This document shows positions 966 through 29,852 of a stretch of 30,267 bases of DNA, piece by piece (within the stretch, counting starts at the first letter, position 1; every line of letters begins with the position of its first letter). The position numbers and the translations under genes are program-made. The DNA comes from a virus, in IMG/VR virus record IMGVR_UViG_3300037847_004289, positions 1-30,267 of that record, one strand, 5' to 3'. The notes under the pieces were generated by a model. The model was given only the letters and a program-made list of their open reading frames with translations, made no database searches and was not told the DNA's origin.

Positions 966-3900
966 ATGGCGAAGCAGACAATTGATATCGGATCTCAGCC
1001 AAATGATGGAACAGGTGATTCCTTAAGACAAGGCGCTCAGAAGATCAATAGTAACTTTAACGAGATATATCAAAGTTTTGGTGATGGTTTTAATTTATCC
1101 CAATTAACCATTGGTACTGCTACTACCGCAGGGTTTGCACAAACTGCGGGAATTGCAACGAATGCACAAAATTTAAATGGGCAACCTGCTTCATTTTACT
1201 TAAATTATAATAATCTAAACAACTTACCAACAATCCCAACCAATACTAATCAGTTAACCAATGGTGCTGGTTATATTACTACTACTGCTCTTGTAGGATA
1301 TGCAACGGATGGGGATCTAGTAGGATTTCAAACTGCTGGAAATTTAGTAGGGTTTATAACAAATATTCAAGCCGGTGCGGGGATTTCTGTATTTGAATCC
1401 CCTGCCGGCAATTTTATTGTCACATCAACTGGTGGTCTTGTAGAAATTATTGGAGATGTTACTCCACAACTTGGTGGTGATTTAGATCTTAACAACAATT
1501 CTATAACAGGGACTGGTAATATTGATTATACTGGAAACTTAGAACTTAGTGGTAATGTTGATATTACTGGTATTAATACCATTAATGGTACATCCAATTT
1601 TAATTCTCAAATAACATATTTTAATAGTCCTAGTGTAAATAGTCCAGCAAATTTCCGTATTGAGCCTGGAGAAGCAGGTCTTGGAGTAACTCTTAGATCA
1701 TCAGGTAGTCTTGAATTAAAAACGAATGGAAGTGCATTATCTGTAAATATTGGCAGTCAGTTAGGATTAGGTGTTGGTGGTGGCGGAGTATCTCAATATG
1801 TTTGGTTGTATGGAGGAAGTACTAAAAGACTTGAAACTACCAATACGGGTGTAGAAGTTACTGGTAATCTTACTGCTACTAAATTTATTGGAGATGGTTC
1901 TAGTTTAAGTGGTATTGCTACGGATGTTGGTCTTGCGGGAGTGGAGGCATCTGTCAATGCACTTGGAACTAACTTAAACATCGTTGGATTCTATGATGCA
2001 ACTCTTGGTGTCGTAACTTCACTGACATTAGTTGGACAATCAAGAGGCATTGCTATTGGTTCAACACTACCTTCTGCAGGAATTAATACTGGTGATTACT
2101 ATATTGTATCTACTGGTGGACAGGATGTTGGTATTGCAACTTATGCAAAACCAGGAATCTCCAGTGTATATGATGGAGACTGGATTGTTGGTATTGATAC
2201 AAACGCTTGGTCGATTCTATCCTATTCCCAACAAGTCGTTGCACCTAGAGCGACTAATGCTGATATTGCAAGAACTTTAGAATCTGATTCTAGTGTTAAC
2301 ACTAGTGGTATTATCACTGCCGGAACTTTTGATGGATCTCTTGCAGCATCAAATCTGACTGGACCATTACCAGCGATTGATGGTTCTGCTTTAACGAATC
2401 TTACTGGAGCATCTGCAGGAAGTTTTGGTGATTCTCTTAACGTGCCTGTATTAACAGTTGATTCTAATGGAAGAATTACTGGAATATCTACTGTAAGTAT
2501 TTCTGGAGGGGCCCTTGGACAAACGCAGTGGACTAGTTATCAATCAGGAATTAGTACAACATCTTCCGTTGGTATTGGAACTACAGTAATTACAGATACT
2601 CTAACAGTAAAAGGTGATGCTTTAATTGACGGTGTATTGCAAGTAGGTCTTGATGCTGGAACTTCAGGTACACTCAATCTTACGGGTAATGCGTCTCTAG
2701 TTTATGGTTCAAATAATTTAACTTTAAAGAACGATAGAACTGGTGGAAAAGTAGTTCTATTAGGGGACGACGGCGTAGAGATTATAAATCATGATACAAA
2801 TTTGAGAGCCGCATGGTTTAAAAGTGGAGTTACTTACTTATACAATGAAGGCAGTCTTAAATTACAAACAACTACTGGTGGTATAGATGTTACTGGTGTA
2901 GTCACTGCAACCAAATTCGTTGGTGATGGATCTGGACTAATTGGAGTCACTGCTTCGGGTACAGGAATAGAAATCAAGGATTCGGGAACTGTTGTTGGAA
3001 CTGCAGGAACTATTGATTTTGGTACGGGTGTTGATGTTTCTCCAGCATCTGCTGGTATTGTTACCATAACTGTTAATGCTGGTGCTGCGGATACTGCTAC
3101 GATTGTTTCTACTGCAGCAACAATCACAGATCATTTGGATCTTAGAGATGATAATGATGACACAAAGAGAATAAGAATTTTCCATGGGAGAAATGTTCTA
3201 TTTGATGACCTACAACCAATAACTGGTGATGGTGCTCTTTTCAATAACAATAAAGGTGAAATAGTATTCTTAAACACTGACCCTGAAAATGGTGATTTAG
3301 TTCCTCTTGCTCTTAAAGAACAGAGTGTAGGCATCGGAACCACAAATCCACTTCAAGCTCTCGACGTAAGAGGTAATGCACTAGTCAGTGGCATCCTTAC
3401 CGCAACTGGTGGATTCTCTGGATCTATTGATTCTGCAACTAATCTCACTGGTGGTATTGCAACCGCAACTCAACTTAGTGTAAGTGGCGTAACCACAATC
3501 AATCAGGGAAGAATCCAATCAAATCCTGATGCAAATATCAGATTTGGTAATTTACCAATCAATAGTTCTGTCACTAGAAATATTGCAATTGGTGACCAAG
3601 TTCTCCAGTCTTTGACTGGTGGTTCTGGTAGAAACATTGGTATGGGTGAGTTTGCACTAAAGAATGTTTCTAGTGGTGCATATAATATTGGACTTGGTAT
3701 TAGAGCTGGTGAAAAGATAAACACTGGATCTTACAACGTAGTCCTCGGTGGATTTGATGGTTCTAACCAGGATTTGGGTATATCTGGTTCTTCAAATAAT
3801 GTTGTTATTTCTGATGGTCAAGGTAAGATTAGATTCTATTCTGCGTCTGATAGAAGAGTTGGCATCGACACTACAATTCTTTCTACGGAGAAAGTAACAG

Positions 3901-5174
3901 TTGGTGGTAGTTTGACCGCAACATCTTTCCATGGATCTGCTACTGGACTTACAAATATTCCTGCAGGACAACTAACTGGAGTATTGCCTACCATCGACGG
4001 TAGTAACTTAATTAACGTTACTGCAAGTGGTACTGGTGTTAACGTTCTGAATAATCAGAACACTTTAGGTGTTGCTGGAACATTTGATTTTAGTTCTGGT
4101 ATTAATGCAAACTTTGGTGTTGGAATCTCAACCATATCTATTGATCCTAATTTACAACTGACTACTGCCAATGTAAGTGGAGTTGTTACTGCTAATTCTT
4201 TTGTGGGTAATGGTTCTGGATTAACGGGTATTTCTACATTTACAAATGATATTTTCTTAGGTGACGCCAACAAAATAAATCTTGGTGCCGATAATGATTT
4301 GCAGATATATCATGGTGGATCTTTAAATAATCACGCATATGTTACGAGCACCAATGGAAATCTTTATCTGACTAGTGGATCTAATGGTGCTGTACATCTT
4401 AGGGGTTATAACAAAACCAATGTTATTGTACAGAGCTCTTCAGTTCAACTTTTCTACGATACTTCCCTAAAATTAGAAACCACTGGTATTGGTGTTACTG
4501 TATATGGAACAACTGAAACTCAACAGTTAAATGTTTCTGGTGTTGCAACTGCAACATCGTTCTCGGGATCTGGTGCAGGACTAACCAGCATTCCTGCAGC
4601 ACAACTTACAGGATCACTACCTGCGATTGATGGTTCTAATTTGATCGGAGTTATTGCTTCTGGTACTGGTATTGAAATTAAGGATAGTGACTCTGTTGTT
4701 GGTTCTGCTGGAACTGTCAACTTTGGAGATGGATTGACAGTATCACCAGTGTCCGCTGGTGTTGTTACTGTAACCGCGGCTGGTGGTTCACTTCAAAATA
4801 GAGTCACTGTTTCTGCGTCTACTACATCGATCACAGACAATGCTACGGGATTTACTACAGTAACTGGATTTAAGACATATTCTCTTATGAAGGTGGGAGT
4901 ATCTACTGCTGCATGGGTAAGAATATACACCGATGGTGTATCAAGATCCAATGATACGTCTAGAGGTGTGGGGGAAGATCCTAATCCTGGAAGTGGAATA
5001 ATTGCAGAAGTAGTTACTACTGGAATCTCAACCCAACAGATGATCACCCCATTTACTATGGGTGGAAATATGGAAGATCCCGTAAATGACACTATTTACT
5101 TGTCTATTACTAACCTTTCTGGTTCTACCCAATCAATAACCGCAGATCTAACTATTCTCCAACTAGAAGCATGA
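966..5174 (+). CDS. Tail-fibre-like virion structural protein, repeat-rich (1402 aa)
   Basis: Probable late virion protein, most likely a fibre or baseplate-attached appendage. The N-terminus (about residues 1-40) carries IGSQPNDGTGDSLRQG followed by KINSNFNEIY. The same motif starts the opposite-strand fibre at 26900-23004, so it is probably a shared attachment domain. The body is a long array of degenerate beta-type repeats of the form TKFVGDGSGLxGV, LPAIDGSxLxxVxASG and GTGIEIKDSxxVVGxAG, typical of cyanophage structural proteins. The last ~120 residues, from about NRVTVSASTTSITD, are non-repetitive and look like a separate C-terminal domain. No endosialidase-type chaperone signature was recognised. 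No clear Shine-Dalgarno is seen before the ATG. A late promoter core (926) precedes it. Position in the virion and receptor role are inferences. Confidence 0.8.
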   Translation: MAKQTIDIGSQPNDGTGDSLRQGAQKINSNFNEIYQSFGDGFNLSQLTIGTATTAGFAQTAGIATNAQNLNGQPASFYLNYNNLNNLPTIPTNTNQLTNGAGYITTTALVGYATDGDLVGFQTAGNLVGFITNIQAGAGISVFESPAGNFIVTSTGGLVEIIGDVTPQLGGDLDLNNNSITGTGNIDYTGNLELSGNVDITGINTINGTSNFNSQITYFNSPSVNSPANFRIEPGEAGLGVTLRSSGSLELKTNGSALSVNIGSQLGLGVGGGGVSQYVWLYGGSTKRLETTNTGVEVTGNLTATKFIGDGSSLSGIATDVGLAGVEASVNALGTNLNIVGFYDATLGVVTSLTLVGQSRGIAIGSTLPSAGINTGDYYIVSTGGQDVGIATYAKPGISSVYDGDWIVGIDTNAWSILSYSQQVVAPRATNADIARTLESDSSVNTSGIITAGTFDGSLAASNLTGPLPAIDGSALTNLTGASAGSFGDSLNVPVLTVDSNGRITGISTVSISGGALGQTQWTSYQSGISTTSSVGIGTTVITDTLTVKGDALIDGVLQVGLDAGTSGTLNLTGNASLVYGSNNLTLKNDRTGGKVVLLGDDGVEIINHDTNLRAAWFKSGVTYLYNEGSLKLQTTTGGIDVTGVVTATKFVGDGSGLIGVTASGTGIEIKDSGTVVGTAGTIDFGTGVDVSPASAGIVTITVNAGAADTATIVSTAATITDHLDLRDDNDDTKRIRIFHGRNVLFDDLQPITGDGALFNNNKGEIVFLNTDPENGDLVPLALKEQSVGIGTTNPLQALDVRGNALVSGILTATGGFSGSIDSATNLTGGIATATQLSVSGVTTINQGRIQSNPDANIRFGNLPINSSVTRNIAIGDQVLQSLTGGSGRNIGMGEFALKNVSSGAYNIGLGIRAGEKINTGSYNVVLGGFDGSNQDLGISGSSNNVVISDGQGKIRFYSASDRRVGIDTTILSTEKVTVGGSLTATSFHGSATGLTNIPAGQLTGVLPTIDGSNLINVTASGTGVNVLNNQNTLGVAGTFDFSSGINANFGVGISTISIDPNLQLTTANVSGVVTANSFVGNGSGLTGISTFTNDIFLGDANKINLGADNDLQIYHGGSLNNHAYVTSTNGNLYLTSGSNGAVHLRGYNKTNVIVQSSSVQLFYDTSLKLETTGIGVTVYGTTETQQLNVSGVATATSFSGSGAGLTSIPAAQLTGSLPAIDGSNLIGVIASGTGIEIKDSDSVVGSAGTVNFGDGLTVSPVSAGVVTVTAAGGSLQNRVTVSASTTSITDNATGFTTVTGFKTYSLMKVGVSTAAWVRIYTDGVSRSNDTSRGVGEDPNPGSGIIAEVVTTGISTQQMITPFTMGGNMEDPVNDTIYLSITNLSGSTQSITADLTILQLEA

Positions 5175-12008: not shown

Positions 12009-12181
12009 GTCAATTCTGTTTCACGGATCTCAGTGATCAGCAACGTCGTCTCCTAATTGATGCAGTATGGATGCGTCAAAGACAATACATCGCAGGAGAT
12101 AGAATGTTCCGAGAGTATGGAAAGATGCTCGACGATCTCCGTGAGGGGTTTGAAGATTATGTTCCTGGACAGTATAGATGA
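12005..12181 (+). CDS. Small soluble protein upstream of zwf (58 aa)
   Basis: 58-residue gene linked at both ends by ATGA overlaps, to the 79-residue membrane protein and to zwf. The protein begins MSQFCFTDLSDQQRRLLIDA and is mostly helical and charged (RQRQYIAGDRMFREYGKMLD), ending GQYR. It has no membrane segment. The tight coupling supports real translation. It could modulate G6PDH or simply be a small phage protein; nothing in the sequence decides this. Confidence 0.6.
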   Translation: MSQFCFTDLSDQQRRLLIDAVWMRQRQYIAGDRMFREYGKMLDDLREGFEDYVPGQYR

Positions 12182-13527
12182 GTAGACTTGTTATATTCGG
12201 TGCGACAGGAGATCTTTGTCGCCGTAAATTGATTCCAGCATTACATAAACTTTGGGAGAAAAAATTACTCCCAAGTGATTTTGTGGTTACTGGGTGTGCA
12301 AGGAGAGAACCAACTAGAGATCAATGGATTGAATCTCTTGGTGGCGATTATCCCGAAGAATTTTTACATCATCTAGACTATCAGTCTGCAGATTTGTCTA
12401 GAGTAGATACTTTAAAGAATCTAAAACCAGCACCAGAAACAGTATCTAGTGTTATTGAAGACACTACTTATTTTCTGTCAGTGCCACCAGAGAGATATGC
12501 AGATGCAATCCAAAATCTCAAAGAAGCGGGGCTTGTAGATGATCAAGAAAGATCCAGAGTTATTATTGAGAAACCTTTTGGGACCGATTATAAATCTGCT
12601 GATAGTTTACAGTCAGTGGTGGGCAGATGTTTACGCGAGAAACAAGTATATCGCATTGACCATTATCTTGGTAAAGATACTGTTAATAATATCCTTGCCA
12701 CTAGGTTTAGCAATACTCTGTTGGAACCACTTTGGAACAGGAATTACGTAGAAGAAGTTCAAATCTATGCAACCGAAACTATTGGTTGTGAAGGTAGATC
12801 TCAATACTACGAAACTGCAGGTGCAGTTAGAGATATGTTGCAGAACCACATGCTTCAGGTTCTTGCATTGATTGCGATGGAAGCACCATGTAAGATGGAT
12901 GCTAAAGAAATTCGTAGAGAAAAGACAAAGGTTCTTGCTGCATCTAGATTGGGTACTAAACTAATCTGTGGTCAGTACAATGGATATAGAGATGAAGAGG
13001 GCGTAGATCCCGAATCAAAAACTCCAACCTTTGTTGCAGGTGACATATATATCGATAACTGGAGATGGGAGGGTGTTCCATTTCACTTCATGACTGGTAA
13101 GAAAATGCCTTATCAGTGTGTTGAGGTTGTTGTAAAACTCAAGTCTCCCCCACAACAGTTGTTCAGTGGACATGAATATAATGATCGTATTGTGATGCGT
13201 CTTCAACCACATCCACACTTTGATATCAGAATTGATATGAAGGCGCCTGGATTTAAGAATGACGTAGAAACTGCAACTCTTACCCATCGTTATCCAGACT
13301 GGTTGGGAGTTGACGGGTATGAAAAATTATTGTATGATGCAATTCAAGGAAACCAATCCAACTTCGTTCACTCCGAAGAAGTATTAGAATCCTGGAGAAT
13401 CGTTGATGATCTTCTATGCACGGGAGATAAGTGCCCTATCATGACTATTCCTTATTTGTATAGTTATGGTTCTTGGGGCCCTCAACAAAAAACAGATTCA
13501 ATTACTAATTGGGATTATCCCGCATGA
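12178..13527 (+). CDS. zwf: Glucose-6-phosphate 1-dehydrogenase
   Basis: First enzyme of the oxidative pentose phosphate pathway: glucose-6-phosphate plus NADP+ gives 6-phosphogluconolactone and NADPH. Motifs visible: Rossmann GATGDL (residues 8-13), GCARREPT for the cofactor phosphate (39-46), EKPFG (131-135), the signature RIDHYLGKD (159-167), and catalytic His 224 in AVRDMLQNHMLQ. At 449 aa it is shorter than typical bacterial enzymes (about 490-510), with the loss spread over loops, but all core motifs are kept. The ATG overlaps the upstream stop, and its own stop overlaps the next ATG. With gnd downstream it forms the NADPH- and pentose-producing part of the operon, a known cyanophage auxiliary function. 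Confidence 0.97.
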   Translation: MSRLVIFGATGDLCRRKLIPALHKLWEKKLLPSDFVVTGCARREPTRDQWIESLGGDYPEEFLHHLDYQSADLSRVDTLKNLKPAPETVSSVIEDTTYFLSVPPERYADAIQNLKEAGLVDDQERSRVIIEKPFGTDYKSADSLQSVVGRCLREKQVYRIDHYLGKDTVNNILATRFSNTLLEPLWNRNYVEEVQIYATETIGCEGRSQYYETAGAVRDMLQNHMLQVLALIAMEAPCKMDAKEIRREKTKVLAASRLGTKLICGQYNGYRDEEGVDPESKTPTFVAGDIYIDNWRWEGVPFHFMTGKKMPYQCVEVVVKLKSPPQQLFSGHEYNDRIVMRLQPHPHFDIRIDMKAPGFKNDVETATLTHRYPDWLGVDGYEKLLYDAIQGNQSNFVHSEEVLESWRIVDDLLCTGDKCPIMTIPYLYSYGSWGPQQKTDSITNWDYPA

Positions 13528-19644: not shown

Positions 19645-20646
19645 TTAGCTTACAAAGTTAATTGTACCTAACATACCCCCGTGAAGTGTACACTGGTATA
19701 CAATTGAACTGGGCCCATCAAATGGAACGGTTAATATTTGTGTACCATTTTGAGATCCAGTTAGGAAACTTCCTCCAGGAGCATAATTTGAACCACCACT
19801 ACTGACTCTTAAAGCAAATGGGTGGCCACTTCCAGTTGAGTTTTCTAAGATATAAGTAAATCCTCTATGGAAGTAAAGAGTTGGGTTATTTGTGCTGTTG
19901 AGAACACCTGGTCCAGCGAAACGATATGCAGAAGCTCCGTTTGCTGTAATGTAATACTTGGTAGTAAATCCTCTGTCGCTTCCATCACCTGTTGTACTGT
20001 TACCCTGGAATGATGTTGCGGTTACAATTCCACTAAAGTTTTGATTAACACTTCCACTAGGAAGATTGGTCAGTCCAGAACCATCTCCGACAAAATTGGT
20101 TGCAGTTACAATACCAGAGAACGCTGCACCGCCAGAAGATATACGAAGTCTTTCTGTTAAATTATTATTTGTTCCTCTATCTGCATATGGTTGATGATTA
20201 AAAGCAAAATAATTTACATCAGTTATATTGAATCCACCTCCATTGTCACCAGTACTCATCTGGAGATGCTTTGAAGAATTCCAATTTGATATGATTGCTG
20301 GGACACCAGATGATTGAACATCTACCAATCCACCAGTAACAATTGCATTACCAGCAAAAGTAGAAACACCAGAAACATTTAGAGTATCAGCCTTTATGTT
20401 TGCAGTCGTGATACCACTACCACCGCCACCACCAGAATAGTTGGTAATATTACTAGTGGAGATGCCTGTAATGTTTGCACCATCACCAACAAATGCCGTT
20501 GCAGTTATAACACCTGCGATACTAGTGTTTGTTGTTATTGCAACCTGTTGACCACCAATATTTAAGTCACCTGCACTTTCAATGGTCGGTGTCCCTGCAG
20601 CGCCAATTACATTTAATTGTTTTACACCAAAAGGTTTTTGCGTCAT
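19645..20646 (-). CDS. Fibre-like protein with C-terminal cupredoxin-like domain (333 aa)
   Basis: The first ~230 residues carry the fibre repeats seen in the two giant proteins: ATAFVGDGANITGIS, ATNFVGDGSGLTNLPSG and ATSFQGNSTTGDGS. The last ~100 residues form a cupredoxin-like beta sandwich: strand FHRGFTYILENSTGSGHPF, then YQCTLHGGMLG near the end. His275, Cys319, His322 and Met325 match the ligand order of type 1 copper sites (His ... Cys-x2-His-x-x-Met), with 44 residues between the first His and the Cys, close to plastocyanin. Copper binding is inferred. No signal peptide, so it is a virion protein rather than an electron carrier. It has its own late promoter core; AGGTG precedes the ATG. 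Confidence 0.8.
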   Translation of the reverse strand: MTQKPFGVKQLNVIGAAGTPTIESAGDLNIGGQQVAITTNTSIAGVITATAFVGDGANITGISTSNITNYSGGGGGSGITTANIKADTLNVSGVSTFAGNAIVTGGLVDVQSSGVPAIISNWNSSKHLQMSTGDNGGGFNITDVNYFAFNHQPYADRGTNNNLTERLRISSGGAAFSGIVTATNFVGDGSGLTNLPSGSVNQNFSGIVTATSFQGNSTTGDGSDRGFTTKYYITANGASAYRFAGPGVLNSTNNPTLYFHRGFTYILENSTGSGHPFALRVSSGGSNYAPGGSFLTGSQNGTQILTVPFDGPSSIVYQCTLHGGMLGTINFVS

Positions 20647-20663
20647 GACACCTACTTTTTAAC

Positions 20664-20670
20664 TATTTAT
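20664..20670 (-). promoter_or_regulatory. Putative late promoter ATAAATA
   Basis: ATAAATA on the minus strand, 17 bases before the ATG at 20646, overlapping the end of the subtilase gene. Confidence 0.5.
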
Positions 20671-22991
20671 TCTTGGACTCTAATTGTTATGTCGCCAGTG
20701 AATGTGATGCCATCCCCGCCATCAATCAACTTAGTTAAATTTGGTTCTGCACCTGTTGGAGCATCCCAAATGACAGGTGCATCACTACCTTGGAGGGTGC
20801 GATTATCAGTCCACAACGAACTTGTGTAATCTGCACCACCTTCAACACCAGCATACACTGTAGATGTTCCTGCGGAATCTGTACTTCCCGCAAGAGGACC
20901 ACCCAGAGATGTAGTGAACCAGTGTTTCATATCTGCCCAAGTCCAATCTCTATTGTATTCAAGTTTAGTTGCCATGATTCCAACAGCAATAGGAGTTGCT
21001 GAACTTGTGCCATTGAATAGTCTATCTTCAGATTCTACAGACTGCACTCCATCAAGACTATAATAAGCGTCATATCTGTTATAACTAGTGCTTGCGTTGT
21101 TATCTGCTGCGGATAGACTGAGATCACATAATGCAAAAATATCAACACCGTTTCCCATGGTGCTATAAGTGGTTTTAGCTTGTCTATAAAAAGTTGAAAG
21201 TCCAACTTCGTTAGAAGCATTTTGTGCCACGCCAAATTCATCCAATGCACCAACCCCAATTCCTTTATAGTAAGATATTCCATTATCATCTTGTCGCCTA
21301 CCAATTTGCCCTGGATATCCAATCCTGTTATAGAATGGTCTGAATGATATTCCAGACATACTGGAATATCCCGACCTTTTTGCTTCCTCAGGAGTTTGTC
21401 CTTGACTCGCTGAGTAGTAGTTATTAAAGTCTGGGTGATCGCCTCTTACTACTTTTTGATCTCTATTGCCAGCAGCGTAACAGAAAATAACTCCAGACTC
21501 CACAAGTTCTCTGCCAGCTTGAAGAACAGAATTATCATATTCATATTCGATTACTAACGCATTACTATTACCAATAAGAGGACCTACTCTAGAACCATAA
21601 TACACCCCATTCGATCCGTCCAATGGAGCCTGACCAGTTCCTGCAGCATCTCTGTGGTTAATATATCCGCTAGAGAGAGAATTTACCCTATGACTCCAAC
21701 TATTACTGGAAATAGTAGGATCTTTTGTACCATACAGGGGATTGATTGGTTTGATTTGATGGAATACTTTTTGCAGATCAAATCCAACTTCCCAAAATGC
21801 TCCATAATCTCCATATAAATTTAGGAACCACTTATTTGCATTATAAGCCCAACCATATTGTCTACCATATGCTTGTGAGGCGCATGGAGTTCCATGGAAA
21901 CCATCATTATCTTGATAATCAGTATTGCTTCCGTTAGCCCTTGCTCTTGTATAACTTGTAGTTATAAGGATAGCACCAAAGTCTTCGACTGTACCTGGAA
22001 CTGCTGTTCCAGTACCGATACCCTGAGTTACAAATTTTGGTGATCTATAAGTTGTACTGTTGTTTCTCCACCAGTTTCTACCTGCTGTATCTGTAGGAAC
22101 TGTTGTTCCATCCCATCTAGTTGTTAAACTGGATGGATTTGCATTAAAGAAGTCTGGATCCAAATAATATGGAGCATCCAAAACTAAATCCAAAAGATCG
22201 CATGTACCTACTGTTGTAGAGATGCCACTGTTAGATAATTTATTACCACCAACATAATTTTGTGGAGTGTCTGACGTAGTGAGTGTACTGATACCTAAAG
22301 TATTTTGGAATTCAATGTGACCAAACCACATATCTTGGTCGCATACAATAACGTCTACGTGCTTACCAGTTCCGTATTGTGGTATTTGACTACCGAGTTG
22401 AACATATGATCCTGTTGTGGAAGCAACTCCATCTTGGTTTGCACCATTAGACCACCAACCACTAACCCAAGGACTTTCTTTTTGAACATGTCTCAACAGT
22501 TGCATCGATCCTCGGTTCTTCAGATTTGAACCAGGACTACTTGTCAGATAACTGTTTCTATTTGAATATCCCTGACACCAAACATTAGATGCATATCTAT
22601 TTTCTTTCGTCAAACTTTCAATCAAATCATCAGGGTTATCCATATAAGTTCCTGGATATGCTGCAGCATTGATGGTTACATTTGTAACGCCAGGATGATT
22701 TTTCAACTGTTGAACTTCTTCATCATCTAATAGATAGATTCCTCTGAGATCACTGTGATTACATGCACTTGGACATTCTACACTCCTAGATGGAATATTG
22801 TCTTCAAGAGTTCCATCTTGCATTAAGATTTCATGAACATGTTTCCAGTCTTCTTTTGTATGACAGAAGACACAGTATTCTTTTTTTGCTCCTGATTCTG
22901 TTGGTTCTTTTGTGTAAGTTTCTTTTCGAGCTTCAAATGCAACTCTTCTTTGTTCCAACCACTCTTCGTAACCCGTTTCAGTAGAAATCAT
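20667..22991 (-). CDS. Subtilisin-like serine protease, probable virion protein (774 aa)
   Basis: Peptidase S8 domain at about residues 200-680, with all elements in order: Asp218 in VDVIVCDQDMWFGHIEF, His366 in DGFHGTPCASQ, oxyanion Asn509 in FCYAAGNRDQK, and Ser663 in FNGTSSATPIAVG. Residues about 82-110 (LRGIYLLDDEEVQQLKNHPG) resemble the end of an I9-type propeptide, which would act as inhibitor and folding aid. Residues 40-77 hold a Cys/His group (CVFCH, CPSAC). About 95 residues follow the catalytic domain. No signal peptide. It sits between two fibre genes with a strong ribosome site (GGGAGGT) 12 bases after the upstream stop, so it is probably a late virion-associated protease acting on the host surface or on virion proteins. 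Family assignment is secure; role is inferred. Confidence 0.88.
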   Translation of the reverse strand: MISTETGYEEWLEQRRVAFEARKETYTKEPTESGAKKEYCVFCHTKEDWKHVHEILMQDGTLEDNIPSRSVECPSACNHSDLRGIYLLDDEEVQQLKNHPGVTNVTINAAAYPGTYMDNPDDLIESLTKENRYASNVWCQGYSNRNSYLTSSPGSNLKNRGSMQLLRHVQKESPWVSGWWSNGANQDGVASTTGSYVQLGSQIPQYGTGKHVDVIVCDQDMWFGHIEFQNTLGISTLTTSDTPQNYVGGNKLSNSGISTTVGTCDLLDLVLDAPYYLDPDFFNANPSSLTTRWDGTTVPTDTAGRNWWRNNSTTYRSPKFVTQGIGTGTAVPGTVEDFGAILITTSYTRARANGSNTDYQDNDGFHGTPCASQAYGRQYGWAYNANKWFLNLYGDYGAFWEVGFDLQKVFHQIKPINPLYGTKDPTISSNSWSHRVNSLSSGYINHRDAAGTGQAPLDGSNGVYYGSRVGPLIGNSNALVIEYEYDNSVLQAGRELVESGVIFCYAAGNRDQKVVRGDHPDFNNYYSASQGQTPEEAKRSGYSSMSGISFRPFYNRIGYPGQIGRRQDDNGISYYKGIGVGALDEFGVAQNASNEVGLSTFYRQAKTTYSTMGNGVDIFALCDLSLSAADNNASTSYNRYDAYYSLDGVQSVESEDRLFNGTSSATPIAVGIMATKLEYNRDWTWADMKHWFTTSLGGPLAGSTDSAGTSTVYAGVEGGADYTSSLWTDNRTLQGSDAPVIWDAPTGAEPNLTKLIDGGDGITFTGDITIRVQE

Positions 22992-23003: not shown

Positions 23004-26000
23004 TCAAAGCATTTTGTTTGCACTGAATCTGTAAGTGGTGACTCCAGATATTCCAGTTAAAGGAACTAAGTTCACTTGAATTTGGCCTGCAGCAACAGAG
23101 ACTGATATATCTGCTATTCGATTTGGTTCATACATGACTCCATATTCCGATACATATGCAGTTGTTCCTACACCCATCACTAGTGCCTTTTGTGCCTGAT
23201 AGTTATTACCATTGATGATGTGTATTGTGTATTCTGCTGTTACGAAATCATCAACGTAAACATCCATTTCATGAGGTGTTCCTGCAGAGGCTGTGAACGA
23301 TGATGATGCAACTCCACTACCCTGATATACAGAGTTCTTGACTTGTAATACAGCATCTCCAACTGGATTTGTAGTTCCTAGACCGATTGATCCACCACCA
23401 TCAACCAGAGAAACACCATTCGTAGCTGTGTTGAACAAAACTCCTGCGTCGGGTGTTGCCCAAGCACCATCACCCCTGAGGAATGTAGAACTGCTTGGAG
23501 TTCCACTAGATGCAAGTCTGTTTACACCAACTGTACCAGAAGCGAGGGCGCCAGCATTTAAGTTTGTGATAGAAGAACCATCACCACTTAGAGTACTTGC
23601 GGTTAGTCCAGTGCAATTAAGGTTTGTGGTTTGTAGGATATTGGTGGATGGATTGAAATAAAGGACACCACTATCAACTTCAAGTTCTCTGTAACCACCA
23701 CCAGACTGAGTATCTCTTAAGAATGGAATTAGTTTATTTTGACTGTTGTCTGAAGATTCATAGACGTAAGAGAACGTTGTTGATCCAATACCAGCACCGC
23801 CAGTCTGATCTGCCACCCAAGCATAATCAGAACCATTCCAACTTAAGATTTGATTGGTAGACGCAGTGCCAACATTAAGGTGAGTATCTACATCATTATT
23901 TGTGAAGGAACCACCTCCACCTTCACCAGCAGAGTATCCTATAATCTGAGATGTGGTGATACCAGTTATTTGTGAACCAATACCAATGAACTCTGTTGCG
24001 GAAAGAGTTCCAGTGACTGTCGCGCCAATACTAGTGGTTTCTAATTTCTTAGAACCATTCCACCAAAGTTCTACAGATCCACCCGAATTAAATACACCTA
24101 AATTGACATCGCTAGGATTTTTAATCTGAAGAGAACTACTCTTTATTATCAAAGAACCTGCGCCAGTTTCCTCAATGTAACTTGTAGATCCATCACTGTA
24201 AATTTCTAATTCTATACTGTCACCAAATCTTAATCTATCATTATTCCCAAGAGATATGCTAGAACTGAATGATACATTACTAGTAAATGTAGAATCACCA
24301 CTAACATCTAGACGATTAAAGGAAGAAGATCCTGTGGTAGCAATACCAACTATACCAGTAATAAAACCAGCATCATTAGTCAACTCACTTGTACTAGTGG
24401 CTGAGGTGGTGATATATCCAGCAGCGCTATGATCTCCCCAACTATAAGAAGTATCCCAATTGGAAATCTGAGTGGATGTAATTGTTGATGCAGTTCCCGT
24501 GTAAGCAGGAACGGTTATAGTTGCAATGTCTCCAGTTACTGATGCAGTGATTCCAGTACCCACAAAGTTTAGAGTTTTTGCAGATCCAACTACAGATCCC
24601 TCATCTCTAATACTGAGAGATACATTAGTTGCTGCAACACCCGTGAGTCCAGAACCATCTCCAACAAAATTGGCTGCAGTAATAATACCACTGATATTTT
24701 GATTACCAGTCAGAGTTAAGTCAGCCGTAATTTCTACTTCATTATTAAATGAATCGAGGCGAAGGGTTCCTGCTTGGGTAGTAATTCTATTTGATTGACT
24801 GCCTGCCATAATCAGGTCGCCAGCATCCACTCTAGGTGTGGTTAATTCATTGCTTCCCAGATCTATGCCACCACTCATGGTGACAATTCCAGTGAATGTA
24901 GTTCCCCCCGTGGTTACAAATCCAGTTGTTGCACTATTGACATAACCTTCGGATGCAAGTCCTGCGACAATACCAGATGTTACAAAACCTGCATTGTTTG
25001 TTAGATCGCTGGTGTCTGATGGAATGGTAGGTTTATCTTGTAAATCAACATAACTACCAGAGAAAGTCTTGATACCAATTTGAGTATCAACATAGTTTGT
25101 AACGTATGCAGTGGTTGTGAATCCTCTACTTAGAACATAACCATCCGTCACAAACCCAACGATTGCGTTGTTCACATACCCCGTGGTCGCCATGCCAACA
25201 ACGGCATTGCTGATGTTACTGTCAACATAACCTTCGGATGCGAGACCTACGACAGAAGTTGTTGTGGCGTATCCTGTGAGGTTTGGTGGGGTATATTCAA
25301 ATACACCTGTTACCTGATTATATGTAAGTCCTGCAGAACCTGGTGAGTTTTGAGTTACAGATAGATCGGAGTATCCTATACCTGCACCTCCAGATCCTCC
25401 GATGTCTGCAGCGGCCTGCCAAGTGTCGCCAGACCACTTAAGAACATGCCCAATTGTTGGTGATGGTGCGTTTACATCATTCAGATCACTTATTGTCGTG
25501 GGTATACCTGGTCTACCAGATAGGTCACTATATGCACCAGAGAAAGTTCTGATCCCTATCTGAGCATCGACATAAGTTATTGCAGCATAGTTACCGATAT
25601 TACTGATGTTTAATGTCGTAATTCCAGTAATTGCACTACCATCACCAACAAACGATGTTGCGGTAAGGACACCGAGATTGATTCCCTTAGTTGTACTATT
25701 ACCAAGTCCTAGAACATCGTCGATGGTTTGAGTTTCAGTATATGATGTGAGATAACCAACGGTTGCATGATTACCCCAGTTATATGATGTGTTCCAATTA
25801 TTAATATCAGCAGTTCCAATTCCTAGTGAGATTGGTGCTTCTCTTTCCCACTTACTAGTTGAAAAATTATATCTAAGAATATTACCATTCCATCCAGAGT
25901 CTGGAACATCATCTAGTGTATCACTAAGATCTGTAAGTTTACTATTGGTATCTAATAACTGAATCCATGCACCAGCGTGTGCAAAATAACCATGTCCAGT

Positions 26001-26900
26001 TTCATGAACATGTGCAAACATGCCATGATATGTACTTGGACTTACTGTGTTTAGTCCACTAAGAGTTGCCCAAACGTTAGAGTAGTAGAGTTTATCTGCA
26101 GTAAGAGATCCTATAGTTATGTCTCTACTGGTTGAACTTCCTAAACTAACAACATCATCTAGTGTTTGCGTCTCTGTATATGATGTAAGATATCCTACCG
26201 CACCGTGATCTCCCCAATTATATGCCCTATCCCAGTTTGTGATATCTGCAGTAGTAATTCCACTGTACGGATATGTTGGCCAAGATACTGATACTGTTGA
26301 TATACCTTCACTGACAGGTGTTAGATCCAGATTGGGACCAAAGTCTAGTTTTGTTACGTCACCTACGGTTATATTATCATCGCGAACTTCGACGCCAGCT
26401 ATACCTCCTCCGCCGCCAGTTCCACCTGCTCCAATGATACTTGAAGCGACAGAAATGTTAACTCTACCTCTACCGTCTGGAGCACTAACCTCAATATTTT
26501 CTGCAAAATTTAATTCTTTTACAATACCTCTTCTAGTTCCATCTTCATAAACATCAATACCTGCACTTGTTGCAGTAACATTTGTTAGTTGAGATCCGTC
26601 TCCAAAGAATTGAAGAGCAGTTACAATTCCAGCAACCTTTAGATCTGTAACTTCGATTGACTGAACTGTCGAAACACCTGTATTTGTAAGTCCAGAAACT
26701 TCAATAGATGGTGTACCTGAAAGGTTTTGTGCAAGAGTAGAAATGCCTGCAGTGCTTGCGTAACTAATTACATCCGCACCATCCCCGAGGGTGTTGTAAA
26801 TCTCCGTAAAATTATCATTAACTTTGGACAGACCCGTTCTCAACGGATCTCCATTTCCATCATTGGGAGCGTTTCCTATGTTAATAACACGTTTAGACAT
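23004..26900 (-). CDS. Tail-fibre-like virion structural protein, repeat-rich (1298 aa)
   Basis: Second giant fibre-like protein. The N-terminus INIGNAPNDGNGDPLRTG then KVNDNFTEIYNTLGDGAD matches that of the 966-5174 protein, so both probably attach at similar sites. Repeats include xxFVGDGSxxTGI units and three copies of a WxxxYxWGxHxxxGY motif (WDRAYNWGDHGAVGYLTSY, WNTSYNWGNHATVGYLTSY, WDTSYSWGDHSAAGY), known from many phage tail fibres. The last ~110 residues, from about VYQGSGVASSSFTAS to ANKML, are non-repetitive. A late promoter core (26932-26938) and GGAG precede the ATG. It heads a minus-strand block with the subtilase. Receptor-binding function is inferred. Confidence 0.82.
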   Translation of the reverse strand: MSKRVINIGNAPNDGNGDPLRTGLSKVNDNFTEIYNTLGDGADVISYASTAGISTLAQNLSGTPSIEVSGLTNTGVSTVQSIEVTDLKVAGIVTALQFFGDGSQLTNVTATSAGIDVYEDGTRRGIVKELNFAENIEVSAPDGRGRVNISVASSIIGAGGTGGGGGIAGVEVRDDNITVGDVTKLDFGPNLDLTPVSEGISTVSVSWPTYPYSGITTADITNWDRAYNWGDHGAVGYLTSYTETQTLDDVVSLGSSTSRDITIGSLTADKLYYSNVWATLSGLNTVSPSTYHGMFAHVHETGHGYFAHAGAWIQLLDTNSKLTDLSDTLDDVPDSGWNGNILRYNFSTSKWEREAPISLGIGTADINNWNTSYNWGNHATVGYLTSYTETQTIDDVLGLGNSTTKGINLGVLTATSFVGDGSAITGITTLNISNIGNYAAITYVDAQIGIRTFSGAYSDLSGRPGIPTTISDLNDVNAPSPTIGHVLKWSGDTWQAAADIGGSGGAGIGYSDLSVTQNSPGSAGLTYNQVTGVFEYTPPNLTGYATTTSVVGLASEGYVDSNISNAVVGMATTGYVNNAIVGFVTDGYVLSRGFTTTAYVTNYVDTQIGIKTFSGSYVDLQDKPTIPSDTSDLTNNAGFVTSGIVAGLASEGYVNSATTGFVTTGGTTFTGIVTMSGGIDLGSNELTTPRVDAGDLIMAGSQSNRITTQAGTLRLDSFNNEVEITADLTLTGNQNISGIITAANFVGDGSGLTGVAATNVSLSIRDEGSVVGSAKTLNFVGTGITASVTGDIATITVPAYTGTASTITSTQISNWDTSYSWGDHSAAGYITTSATSTSELTNDAGFITGIVGIATTGSSSFNRLDVSGDSTFTSNVSFSSSISLGNNDRLRFGDSIELEIYSDGSTSYIEETGAGSLIIKSSSLQIKNPSDVNLGVFNSGGSVELWWNGSKKLETTSIGATVTGTLSATEFIGIGSQITGITTSQIIGYSAGEGGGGSFTNNDVDTHLNVGTASTNQILSWNGSDYAWVADQTGGAGIGSTTFSYVYESSDNSQNKLIPFLRDTQSGGGYRELEVDSGVLYFNPSTNILQTTNLNCTGLTASTLSGDGSSITNLNAGALASGTVGVNRLASSGTPSSSTFLRGDGAWATPDAGVLFNTATNGVSLVDGGGSIGLGTTNPVGDAVLQVKNSVYQGSGVASSSFTASAGTPHEMDVYVDDFVTAEYTIHIINGNNYQAQKALVMGVGTTAYVSEYGVMYEPNRIADISVSVAAGQIQVNLVPLTGISGVTTYRFSANKML

Positions 26901-26967: not shown

Positions 26968-27087
26968 ATGTTAATGAAAAAAATGATTGAAGATCTTATC
27001 GAAGCATATCGAGATTGGAAAGAGGAAAGAGCATTCAAGAAAAGACTGAAAGGTCAACAAAAACGTGATCCATATTTGTACAAATGA
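26968..27087 (+). CDS. Small basic protein (39 aa)
   Basis: 39-residue gene beginning MLMKKMIEDLIEAYRDWKEE, one amphipathic charged helix ending in a basic tail (KRLKGQQKRDPYLYK). Its stop overlaps the start of the carbamoyltransferase gene (ATGA), so it is probably coupled to it and shares the late promoter. Alternative in-frame ATGs exist at 26974 and 26983. Function unknown. Confidence 0.5.
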   Translation: MLMKKMIEDLIEAYRDWKEERAFKKRLKGQQKRDPYLYK

Positions 27088-28550
27088 TGACTAAGTGGGG
27101 AATCTCTGCGAATAGTCACAACGCTGCATTAAGTATATTCGTTGGAGATCAATTAGTTTTCGCCACATCTAGCGAAAGATATAGTAAGATTAAAAACGAT
27201 CCACATCTTTGTAAGTCACTAATTGATGATGCGATGTGGTGGGGTACGCCACAAGAGGTGTATTGGTACGAAAGTCCTAGAATTAAATCATACAGACAGT
27301 TTTTAGCTGGACAACATATACCTAAAGGTGAGAATAATATAGGTAACTACATTCGTAAAAATATCGGACACTTACCTGTCTATTATACTTCACACCACAA
27401 GAGTCATGCAGCTGCTGGATATTACACCAGTAAGTTTGATAATGCCGCGATTGTTGTTTTAGATGCTATTGGTGAATTTGAAACTTGTACTATCTGGAAA
27501 GGTCGTGGAGAAAAATTAAAAAAAGTATATTCACAGTCATACCCCTCTAGTTTGGGTCTTTGGTATTCCGCAATGACACAACGGTGTGGATTAAAACCAA
27601 ACGAGGAAGAATATATCCTAATGGGTATGTCCGCATTTGGAGATCCCGATAGACTTTATAGAGAGGTATTATCTGACTTCTTTGATTTAAATAAGAATCC
27701 ATACTACCTCAAACACAACTTACATAAAGGTTGTTCTATCTGGAGAGAAGATCTTCATAGTCAAAAAGACATATTTGATATTGCTGCGGCAACTCAAAAA
27801 GTGTATGAGAAGATGTTGGAAAGAACACTAATGAAAGCTAAGTCCATCGTTAAGAGTGACAACCTTGTACTCATGGGTGGGTGTGCTTTAAATTGTTCTG
27901 CAAATCCTATTGGATACAAGTTCTTCAAAGACGTTTGGATTATGCCTGCTCCTGGGGATGATGGTAGTTCTATTGGTGCAGTTCTTGCACATACCAAAAA
28001 ACATATTCCATGGAAGAATCCATACTTAGGTAAAAACTTAGGATACAACTCTGACAATGCAACTATTGTTGAAGATCTTTTGAGAAATCAGATTTGTGGA
28101 CTTGCTAGAGGTCGGGCAGAGTTCGGTCCCAGAGCTCTAGGTAATCGTAGTTTGATTGCAGATCCTAGAGGTACTGATATAAAAGATAGGGTCAACGAAA
28201 TTAAAAAAAGAGAACCATTCAGACCCTTTGCTCCTGCAATTCTAGAAGAGTTTGCCAGTGAATACTTTGACATGCCTTGTGAAAAATCACCATACATGCA
28301 AATGGTAGTTAAGTGTAGGAGACCTGATCTATACCCAGCAATTGTTCATGTTGATGGGACAAGTAGAGTTCAAACGGTATCTAAAGAAGATAACCCAGAA
28401 TTTAGAGAACTTCTTGAAATGTGGTACAAAGAAACTGGATGCCCGATGCTTCTGAATACTTCGTTAAATATAAAAGGAGAACCCATTTTGAATGACAAAG
28501 ATCAGATTATTCAATGGGAAGAAAAACATAAAATTAAAATCTGGACATGA
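27084..28550 (+). CDS. Carbamoyltransferase, NodU/CmcH/TobZ family (488 aa)
   Basis: Enzyme that transfers a carbamoyl group from carbamoyl phosphate to a hydroxyl of a sugar or other small molecule through a carbamoyl-adenylate. Motifs: HHKSHAAAGYY (residues 104-114, metal-binding in the Kae1-like domain), ILMGMSAFGDP (178-188), LMGGCALNCSANP for the nucleotide, and GRAEFGPRALGNRSLIADPR and REPFRPFAPAI in the C-terminal YrdC-like region. At 488 aa it is somewhat shorter than most members (about 550-600). It overlaps both neighbours (ATGA). With the SGNH hydrolase behind it, modification of a glycan or virion surface sugar is a reasonable inference; no sugar synthesis genes are in view. Confidence 0.9.
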   Translation: MMTKWGISANSHNAALSIFVGDQLVFATSSERYSKIKNDPHLCKSLIDDAMWWGTPQEVYWYESPRIKSYRQFLAGQHIPKGENNIGNYIRKNIGHLPVYYTSHHKSHAAAGYYTSKFDNAAIVVLDAIGEFETCTIWKGRGEKLKKVYSQSYPSSLGLWYSAMTQRCGLKPNEEEYILMGMSAFGDPDRLYREVLSDFFDLNKNPYYLKHNLHKGCSIWREDLHSQKDIFDIAAATQKVYEKMLERTLMKAKSIVKSDNLVLMGGCALNCSANPIGYKFFKDVWIMPAPGDDGSSIGAVLAHTKKHIPWKNPYLGKNLGYNSDNATIVEDLLRNQICGLARGRAEFGPRALGNRSLIADPRGTDIKDRVNEIKKREPFRPFAPAILEEFASEYFDMPCEKSPYMQMVVKCRRPDLYPAIVHVDGTSRVQTVSKEDNPEFRELLEMWYKETGCPMLLNTSLNIKGEPILNDKDQIIQWEEKHKIKIWT

Positions 28551-29408: not shown

Positions 29409-29852
29409 ATGGTTGATTATGAGAACCCTTGGATGTACGAGGGTCGTGCGTTTTTGTCGGAAGATATTGGAGATAACTACGGGTTCGTTTATAAAATTAC
29501 GAACTCACTCAATGGTAGAGAGTATATCGGAAGAAAATATTTTGTCCAGAAGCGGAAACCAAAAGGTGGTAAACGCCGAGTTACTTCAGAGTCTGATTGG
29601 AAGAAGTACTATGGGTCTTGCCCTGAACTGAAAGAGGATATAAAGAAGTACGGAAAACAGAACTTTTCTCGCCAGATTCTGAGTATACATACTACACTAG
29701 GAAAGGTGAACTACGAGGAGACCCGTCAGTTGTTCGTCCAGGGAGTCCTGACCGAATCGCTTGACAACGGTGTCCCGAGGTTCTACAATTCTAATGTTCT
29801 CGGCCGTTACTACAGGAAGGACTACTTTCATGGAACAAGATCTGATGAATGA
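29409..29852 (+). CDS. GIY-YIG nuclease-like protein (147 aa)
   Basis: Residues 24-45 contain YGFVYKITNSLNGREYIGRK, the GIY-YIG signature (here GFVYKI...YIGRK). Downstream come the basic stretch KRKPKGGKRRVTSES, YYGSCPELKEDIKKYGKQNF and Glu in VNYEETRQLF, as in the nuclease domain of T4 homing endonucleases. It lacks an obvious extra DNA-binding domain, so it is a free-standing nuclease that could be a homing enzyme or a host-DNA nuclease. It is preceded by a late promoter core and a hairpin directly at the ATG, without a Shine-Dalgarno. Its 3' end overlaps the next small gene. Confidence 0.82.
   Translation: MVDYENPWMYEGRAFLSEDIGDNYGFVYKITNSLNGREYIGRKYFVQKRKPKGGKRRVTSESDWKKYYGSCPELKEDIKKYGKQNFSRQILSIHTTLGKVNYEETRQLFVQGVLTESLDNGVPRFYNSNVLGRYYRKDYFHGTRSDE

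Follow-up and report, generated by a model that had tools for sequence, protein, structure and literature searches.

The DNA analysed here, a 30,267-nucleotide stretch covering positions 1 to 30,267 of the IMG/VR virus record IMGVR_UViG_3300037847_004289 (hereafter the window), carries a known protease family, the S8 subtilases, in a tightly linked fibre cassette. The protease gene (S8) follows a long fibre gene, fibre-1, whose C-terminal domain (CTD1) recurs ahead of S8 genes in many other viruses while the rest of the fibre changes. Such near-constant coupling of S8 with CTD1 fibres suggests a tail-borne protease in this marine cyanobacterial virus.

Identity of the protease

The preliminary description of this DNA had proposed a subtilisin-like protease with D218, H366, N509 and S663 as its catalytic set, and these assignments prove exact: sequence and model together identify the 774-aa protein as an S8 subtilase with all four residues intact, and catalysis is predicted. 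PF00082 (Peptidase_S8) matches it in Pfam with 44.7 bits, above the gathering score of 21.8, and E=1.4e-11, and the PHROGs profile phrog_9158/T4-GC 292, labelled there as 'unknown function', covers most of its length (residues 34-693, E=1.1e-76). When the window protein is aligned with 25 IMG/VR relatives, Asp, His and Ser and the oxyanion Asn stand in S8 order and are invariant in all 26 sequences, down to a relative of 25% identity (L045); all four are also kept in the cultured phages S-SCSM2R, S-SSM7, P-SSM2 and S-SCSM1. Structure prediction, which had been suggested as a check, bears this out: the AlphaFold2 model (pLDDT 75, pTM 0.76) aligns to 272 of the 276 residues of aqualysin I (4dzt; Z 26.9, 2.5 Å) and thus gives one subtilase domain, with PCSK9 and Bacillus subtilisins as the next matches close behind, and Foldseek places fervidolysin and pro-forms in its top ranks. 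Conservation and fold rule out a chance origin of the catalytic motif. Profiles of Peptidase S74 fibre chaperones and of prohead proteases gave no match in a Pfam scan at E<=1.

In the model, strands at residues 37-43, 83-88 and 102-107 and helices at 46-56 and 90-97 precede the catalytic domain, and a beta-alpha...beta-alpha-beta unit of this kind is the typical layout of an I9 prodomain. A profile built over this region in 17 relatives has five PDB matches, of which four are subtilisin-type propeptides, but only at E 0.3-1.4, and we therefore call the prodomain 'I9-like'. The segment at residues 82-110, described earlier as propeptide-like, belongs to this larger I9-like prodomain, which spans about residues 37-110. 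The insertion between the catalytic Asp and His is strongly conserved, has pLDDT of about 90 over much of its length and is missing from the distant L045. Model confidence is low in the C-terminal tail, whose pattern GxGxTFxGxxTI persists behind variable linkers, even where Ig-like or other domains are inserted ahead of it. We considered the tail as a general virion tag and rejected the idea: a tail profile matches essentially S8 proteins alone, which makes it family-specific. No hydrophobic N-terminal segment is seen, in line with the earlier statement that the protein has no signal peptide; the Cys/His-rich N-terminus noted at the same time is present as a minor feature and only partly conserved.

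The gene and its surroundings

The S8 reading frame starts with ATG and is flanked by two fibre genes, as the preliminary description had it; both share its strand, with fibre-1 12 nt upstream and fibre-2 20 nt downstream (Table 1). It is plausible that this block is a late operon. Although GATAAATA stands before fibre-1, exact TATAAATA occurs at chance level, and so we claim no late promoter; a promoter scan of the window gave no surplus over shuffled sequence, and Rfam and tRNA scans of it gave no matches. Elsewhere in the window are genes for glucose-6-phosphate dehydrogenase and a Nol-like carbamoyltransferase (12178-13527 and 27084-28550, both on the plus strand; Pfam, PHROGs), which are typical cyanophage metabolic genes. 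For the plus-strand gene at 29409-29852, the name 'NAD synthetase' of one matching PHROG is doubtful, as several homing endonuclease PHROGs match it too.

Table 1. Features of the S8 gene and the flanking fibre genes, in window coordinates
Feature	Coordinates	Strand	Basis
Fibre-1, 1298 aa, partner upstream of S8	23004..26900	-	phrog_9729, phrog_677, phrog_958
CTD1, last 99 aa of fibre-1, T4 gp9-C-like beta sandwich	23007..23303	-	model, linkage
RBS-like GGGAGG, directly past the fibre-1 stop codon	22998..23003	-	sequence
S8 subtilase gene, 774 aa	20667..22991	-	ORF, PF00082, phrog_9158, 26-sequence alignment, model
I9-like prodomain, residues 37-110	22662..22883	-	model secondary structure; kept in all relatives; weak PDB propeptide matches
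Catalytic Asp218	22338..22340	-	context VIVCDQD; alignment
Family-specific Asp-His insertion, residues 243-340	21972..22265	-	conserved in most of the alignment
Catalytic His366	21894..21896	-	context DGFHGTP; alignment
Oxyanion Asn509	21465..21467	-	context AAGN; alignment
Catalytic Ser663 in GTSSATP	21003..21005	-	context NGTSSATP; alignment
Conserved C-terminal tail GxGITFTGDITIRVQE, residues 755-774	20670..20729	-	tail-profile matches
Fibre-2, 333 aa, downstream of S8	19645..20646	-	phrog_677
Cupredoxin-like C-terminal domain of fibre-2, HPF...YQCTLHGGM	19648..19977	-	similarity to Copper-bind insert in L033 S8

All sequence relatives of the S8 protein among 50,697 phage records (31, 47 and 53 records for three queries) come from cyanophages or from marine single-cell viruses. 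Among the matches listed from 84,980 bacterial and archaeal genomes there is one full-length relative (L071), on an 8-kb contig within a Flavobacteriaceae genome bin; this is probably a misbinned phage contig, and on the matches listed we reject a cellular origin of S8. Several relatives are already labelled S8 or subtilisin-like, the P-SSM2 and S-SSM7 records carry PF00082 and T4-GC 292 notes, and Sullivan et al. 2010 (PMC3037559) mention an S8 peptidase for P-HM1 and for P-HM2; the protease as such was therefore known before. What appears to be new is its pairing with the CTD1 fibre: in the open-access literature searched for tail-borne phage subtilases we found no description of that pairing. 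Some public names mislead (L052, L070), with the S8-bearing S-SCSM1_228 called 'baseplate wedge subunit' and the S-T4 CTD1 fibre 'flagellar hook-length control protein'.

Linkage to one fibre domain

Fibres directly upstream of S8 have their last ~100 residues, CTD1, in common and differ in the remainder. A search of IMG/VR with CTD1 alone returned 80 loci, in which CTD1 always lies at the extreme C-terminus. S8 is the next gene in 72 of the 77 cases with enough downstream sequence (32 of 37 after clustering at 90% identity), counts that carry a bias toward linkage, as the search was seeded from CTD1s adjacent to S8. The proposed search for S8 domains beside fibre genes in other cyanophages thus came out strongly positive. 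Every strong CTD1 gene (E below 1e-25) adjoins S8 in 12 contigs or genomes of 118-252 kb, though identical scores make G003-G005 look like close kin and the twelve are not twelve independent events. S-SCSM1 has two CTD1 genes, one on either side of S8, contigs L044 and L023 each hold two fibre-S8 pairs, and other contigs have a second S8 in tandem.

The two partners also vary together. Across 68 pairs, CTD1 similarity correlates with S8 similarity (Spearman 0.29, 0 of 300 Mantel permutations), whereas the correlation between fibre body and S8 is about 0; between loci L001 and L016, for example, normalised bit scores are 0.66 for S8 and 0.73 for CTD1 but 0.04 for the body. CTD1 and S8 behave as one cassette on unrelated fibre stalks. 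The coupling has exceptions on both sides: weaker CTD1 relatives occur without S8 in S-SM2, S-SRM01 and S-CAM7, and in 14 of the 58 informative S8 clusters no recognisable CTD1 immediately precedes S8; the place is taken by a further S8 or a different fibre end, or CTD1 is missing there. Distant S8s in S-RSM4, S-WAM2, S-CAM4, S-CREM1 and Sf-FR1 stand directly behind a gene with a different common C-terminal domain. In the window itself, 966-5174 (+) encodes a fibre of 1402 aa. Its C-terminal ~210 aa match phrog_15343, and by eye its end resembles that other domain; we checked whether this frame is a further S8 protein, and it is not.

CTD1 is modelled as a beta sandwich (pLDDT 95), is conserved to near its last residue and, in the model, has the fold of the T4 gp9 C-terminal domain (residues 177-283; Z 11.4 over 96 residues, 2.3 Å), with an equal Z of 11.4 to the tailspike of Acinetobacter phage vB_ApiP_P1, in a C-terminal part. 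PF23618 matches CTD1 at E=2e-4, in only 2 of 46 members. Since gp9 is the socket protein that holds the long tail fibre in T4, it is a natural idea, by analogy, that CTD1 may serve as a socket.

Probable virion association and accessory domains

That the S8 protein travels in the virion, as the preliminary description supposed, gains indirect support from the fibre linkage, the accessory domains of its relatives and one tagged homologue, and the sequence is compatible with both uses named there, host cutting and fibre maturation. The homologue is S-SCSM1_228, a 1411-aa S8 protein tagged 'virion protein' but distant from the window protein and of another architecture. Mass spectrometry of CsCl-purified S-SCSM1 particles identified 45 proteins (PMC9602691); the tag is on 48 genes, an inexact match, but the terminase and some hub genes are untagged, which suggests that the tagging reflects the proteomics. 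S-SCSM1_228 carries Laminin_G_3 lectin domains, and other S8 relatives have Big_5, Ig or Copper-bind domains. With CTD1 linkage, lectin, Ig and cupredoxin homologues and the tag all pointing the same way, the indirect evidence favours a virion protein. A structural relative, the 'extracellular serine proteinase' of Atu_ph07, could not be placed among that phage's virion proteins.

The cupredoxin-like domain of fibre-2 also sits inside the L033 protease (E about 1e-5 to 1e-7 in a five-sequence comparison), and the insert is related to a cupredoxin-like domain in the L038 S8. Its His...Cys-x2-His-x2-Met pattern resembles a type 1 copper site, and the S-SCSM2R counterpart is labelled PetE. Cupredoxin-like ends are common among genes downstream of S8 family members, and the domain lies within the protease itself in L033 and L038-L041; the L038 S8 has CopC and four Big_5 matches besides. 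In S-TIM54 (L050, 8983-15417), the S8 protein is 2145 aa long and includes Ig domains as well as a BD-FAE (alpha/beta-hydrolase) fragment between prodomain and protease.

Possible function

We favour a fibre-associated virion subtilase, kept as a zymogen, that would cut a host surface protein; judged from sequence and models, this is the most likely reading, with about an even chance of being right. The protease would be made as a zymogen with its I9-like prodomain and would dock on CTD1 in the region of the fibre tip, perhaps by means of the conserved C-terminal tail of S8. The prodomain may hold it inactive within the producing cell and while particles assemble. Activation could follow once the particle is in seawater or meets a new host; the active protease might then cut a host surface protein and so promote adsorption or penetration, which would make it the protease equivalent of a tailspike depolymerase. 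More tentatively, and with clearly less than even confidence, we speculate that CTD1 is a dedicated docking socket and that the prodomain-caged S8 at the fibre tip cuts a cyanobacterial surface protein, making the pair a portable fibre-protease cassette.

The main rival is a fibre maturation protease that would, as the particle is assembled, cleave its cognate fibre-1 (for example in CTD1 or at the junction just ahead of it) or other fibres, in a role akin to that of S74 chaperone-peptidase domains, and might then leave or stay trapped in the virion. The CTD1-S8 linkage supports this reading and the virion enzyme both, and maturation can also call on there being one protease per CTD1 fibre, at the position of Tfa-like fibre chaperones, on the two-pair contigs L044 and L023 and on the co-variation of S8 with CTD1. 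But a well-folded domain conserved to near its last residue would be an odd one to cut off, the lectin- and Ig-fused members and the virion-tagged homologue fit a surface enzyme better, and some S8s follow fibres without CTD1. We consider maturation possible but rather unlikely, and put the virion enzyme ahead of it because CTD1 is conserved and well folded and the accessory domains are of surface type.

It is also conceivable, if improbable, that catalysis serves self-processing only and that the mature protein with its bound prodomain forms a structural or receptor-binding tip, as in PCSK9. PCSK9 is among the fold matches, the prodomain is strongly conserved and a family-specific insertion lies near the catalytic Asp; the invariance of triad and Asn in very divergent members speaks weakly against this, as self-processing alone could explain it too. 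Slightly less probable again is a protease that works on host proteins inside the infected cell and is placed in the fibre block by chance, which would suit the missing secretion signal but not the tight linkage to one fibre domain across tens of divergent loci, nor the extracellular type of the accessory domains. Sheath proteins bear a structural domain that is likewise named 'subtilisin-like' (PF04984), but that the protein is of this kind and no protease is hardly credible: PF04984 gave no match in the Pfam scan at E<=1, PF00082 is the only Pfam match and every catalytic residue is present, so that family and residue tests refute it.

Comparison with known systems

To our knowledge, little has been established about the receptors that marine cyanophages use or the steps by which they enter. 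If the favoured virion subtilase is real, a virion protease that moves between phages together with a single fibre domain would indicate that its target on the host surface is a protein, and CTD1 with S8 would be a simple marker of such an entry route across ocean viromes. Tailspike depolymerases and S74 chaperone-peptidases also tie an enzyme to a fibre, a likeness of working only, since here the subtilase is a separate gene and S74 is not found by Pfam. Secreted bacterial subtilases such as aqualysin I, proteinase K-like enzymes and fervidolysin have the catalytic fold and prodomain-first layout that are predicted for the window protein, which differs from them in its lack of a secretion signal, its large Asp-His insertion and its phage fibre context. 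Closer to it are S-SSM7 gp232, P-SSM2 gp297 and S-SCSM2R gp203 (T4-GC 292/phrog_9158), which share family, catalytic set, I9-like prodomain and the place directly behind a fibre gene, but are at most 37% identical and mostly labelled hypothetical. S-SCSM1_228 has the same S8 and N-terminal domains and CTD1 fibres on both flanks, but a long lectin-like C-terminal part is fused to it and identity is 26% over the catalytic part. T4 gp9, finally, has a C-terminal beta sandwich like that of CTD1, whereas CTD1 is the terminal domain of long fibres and has a protease as its linked partner.
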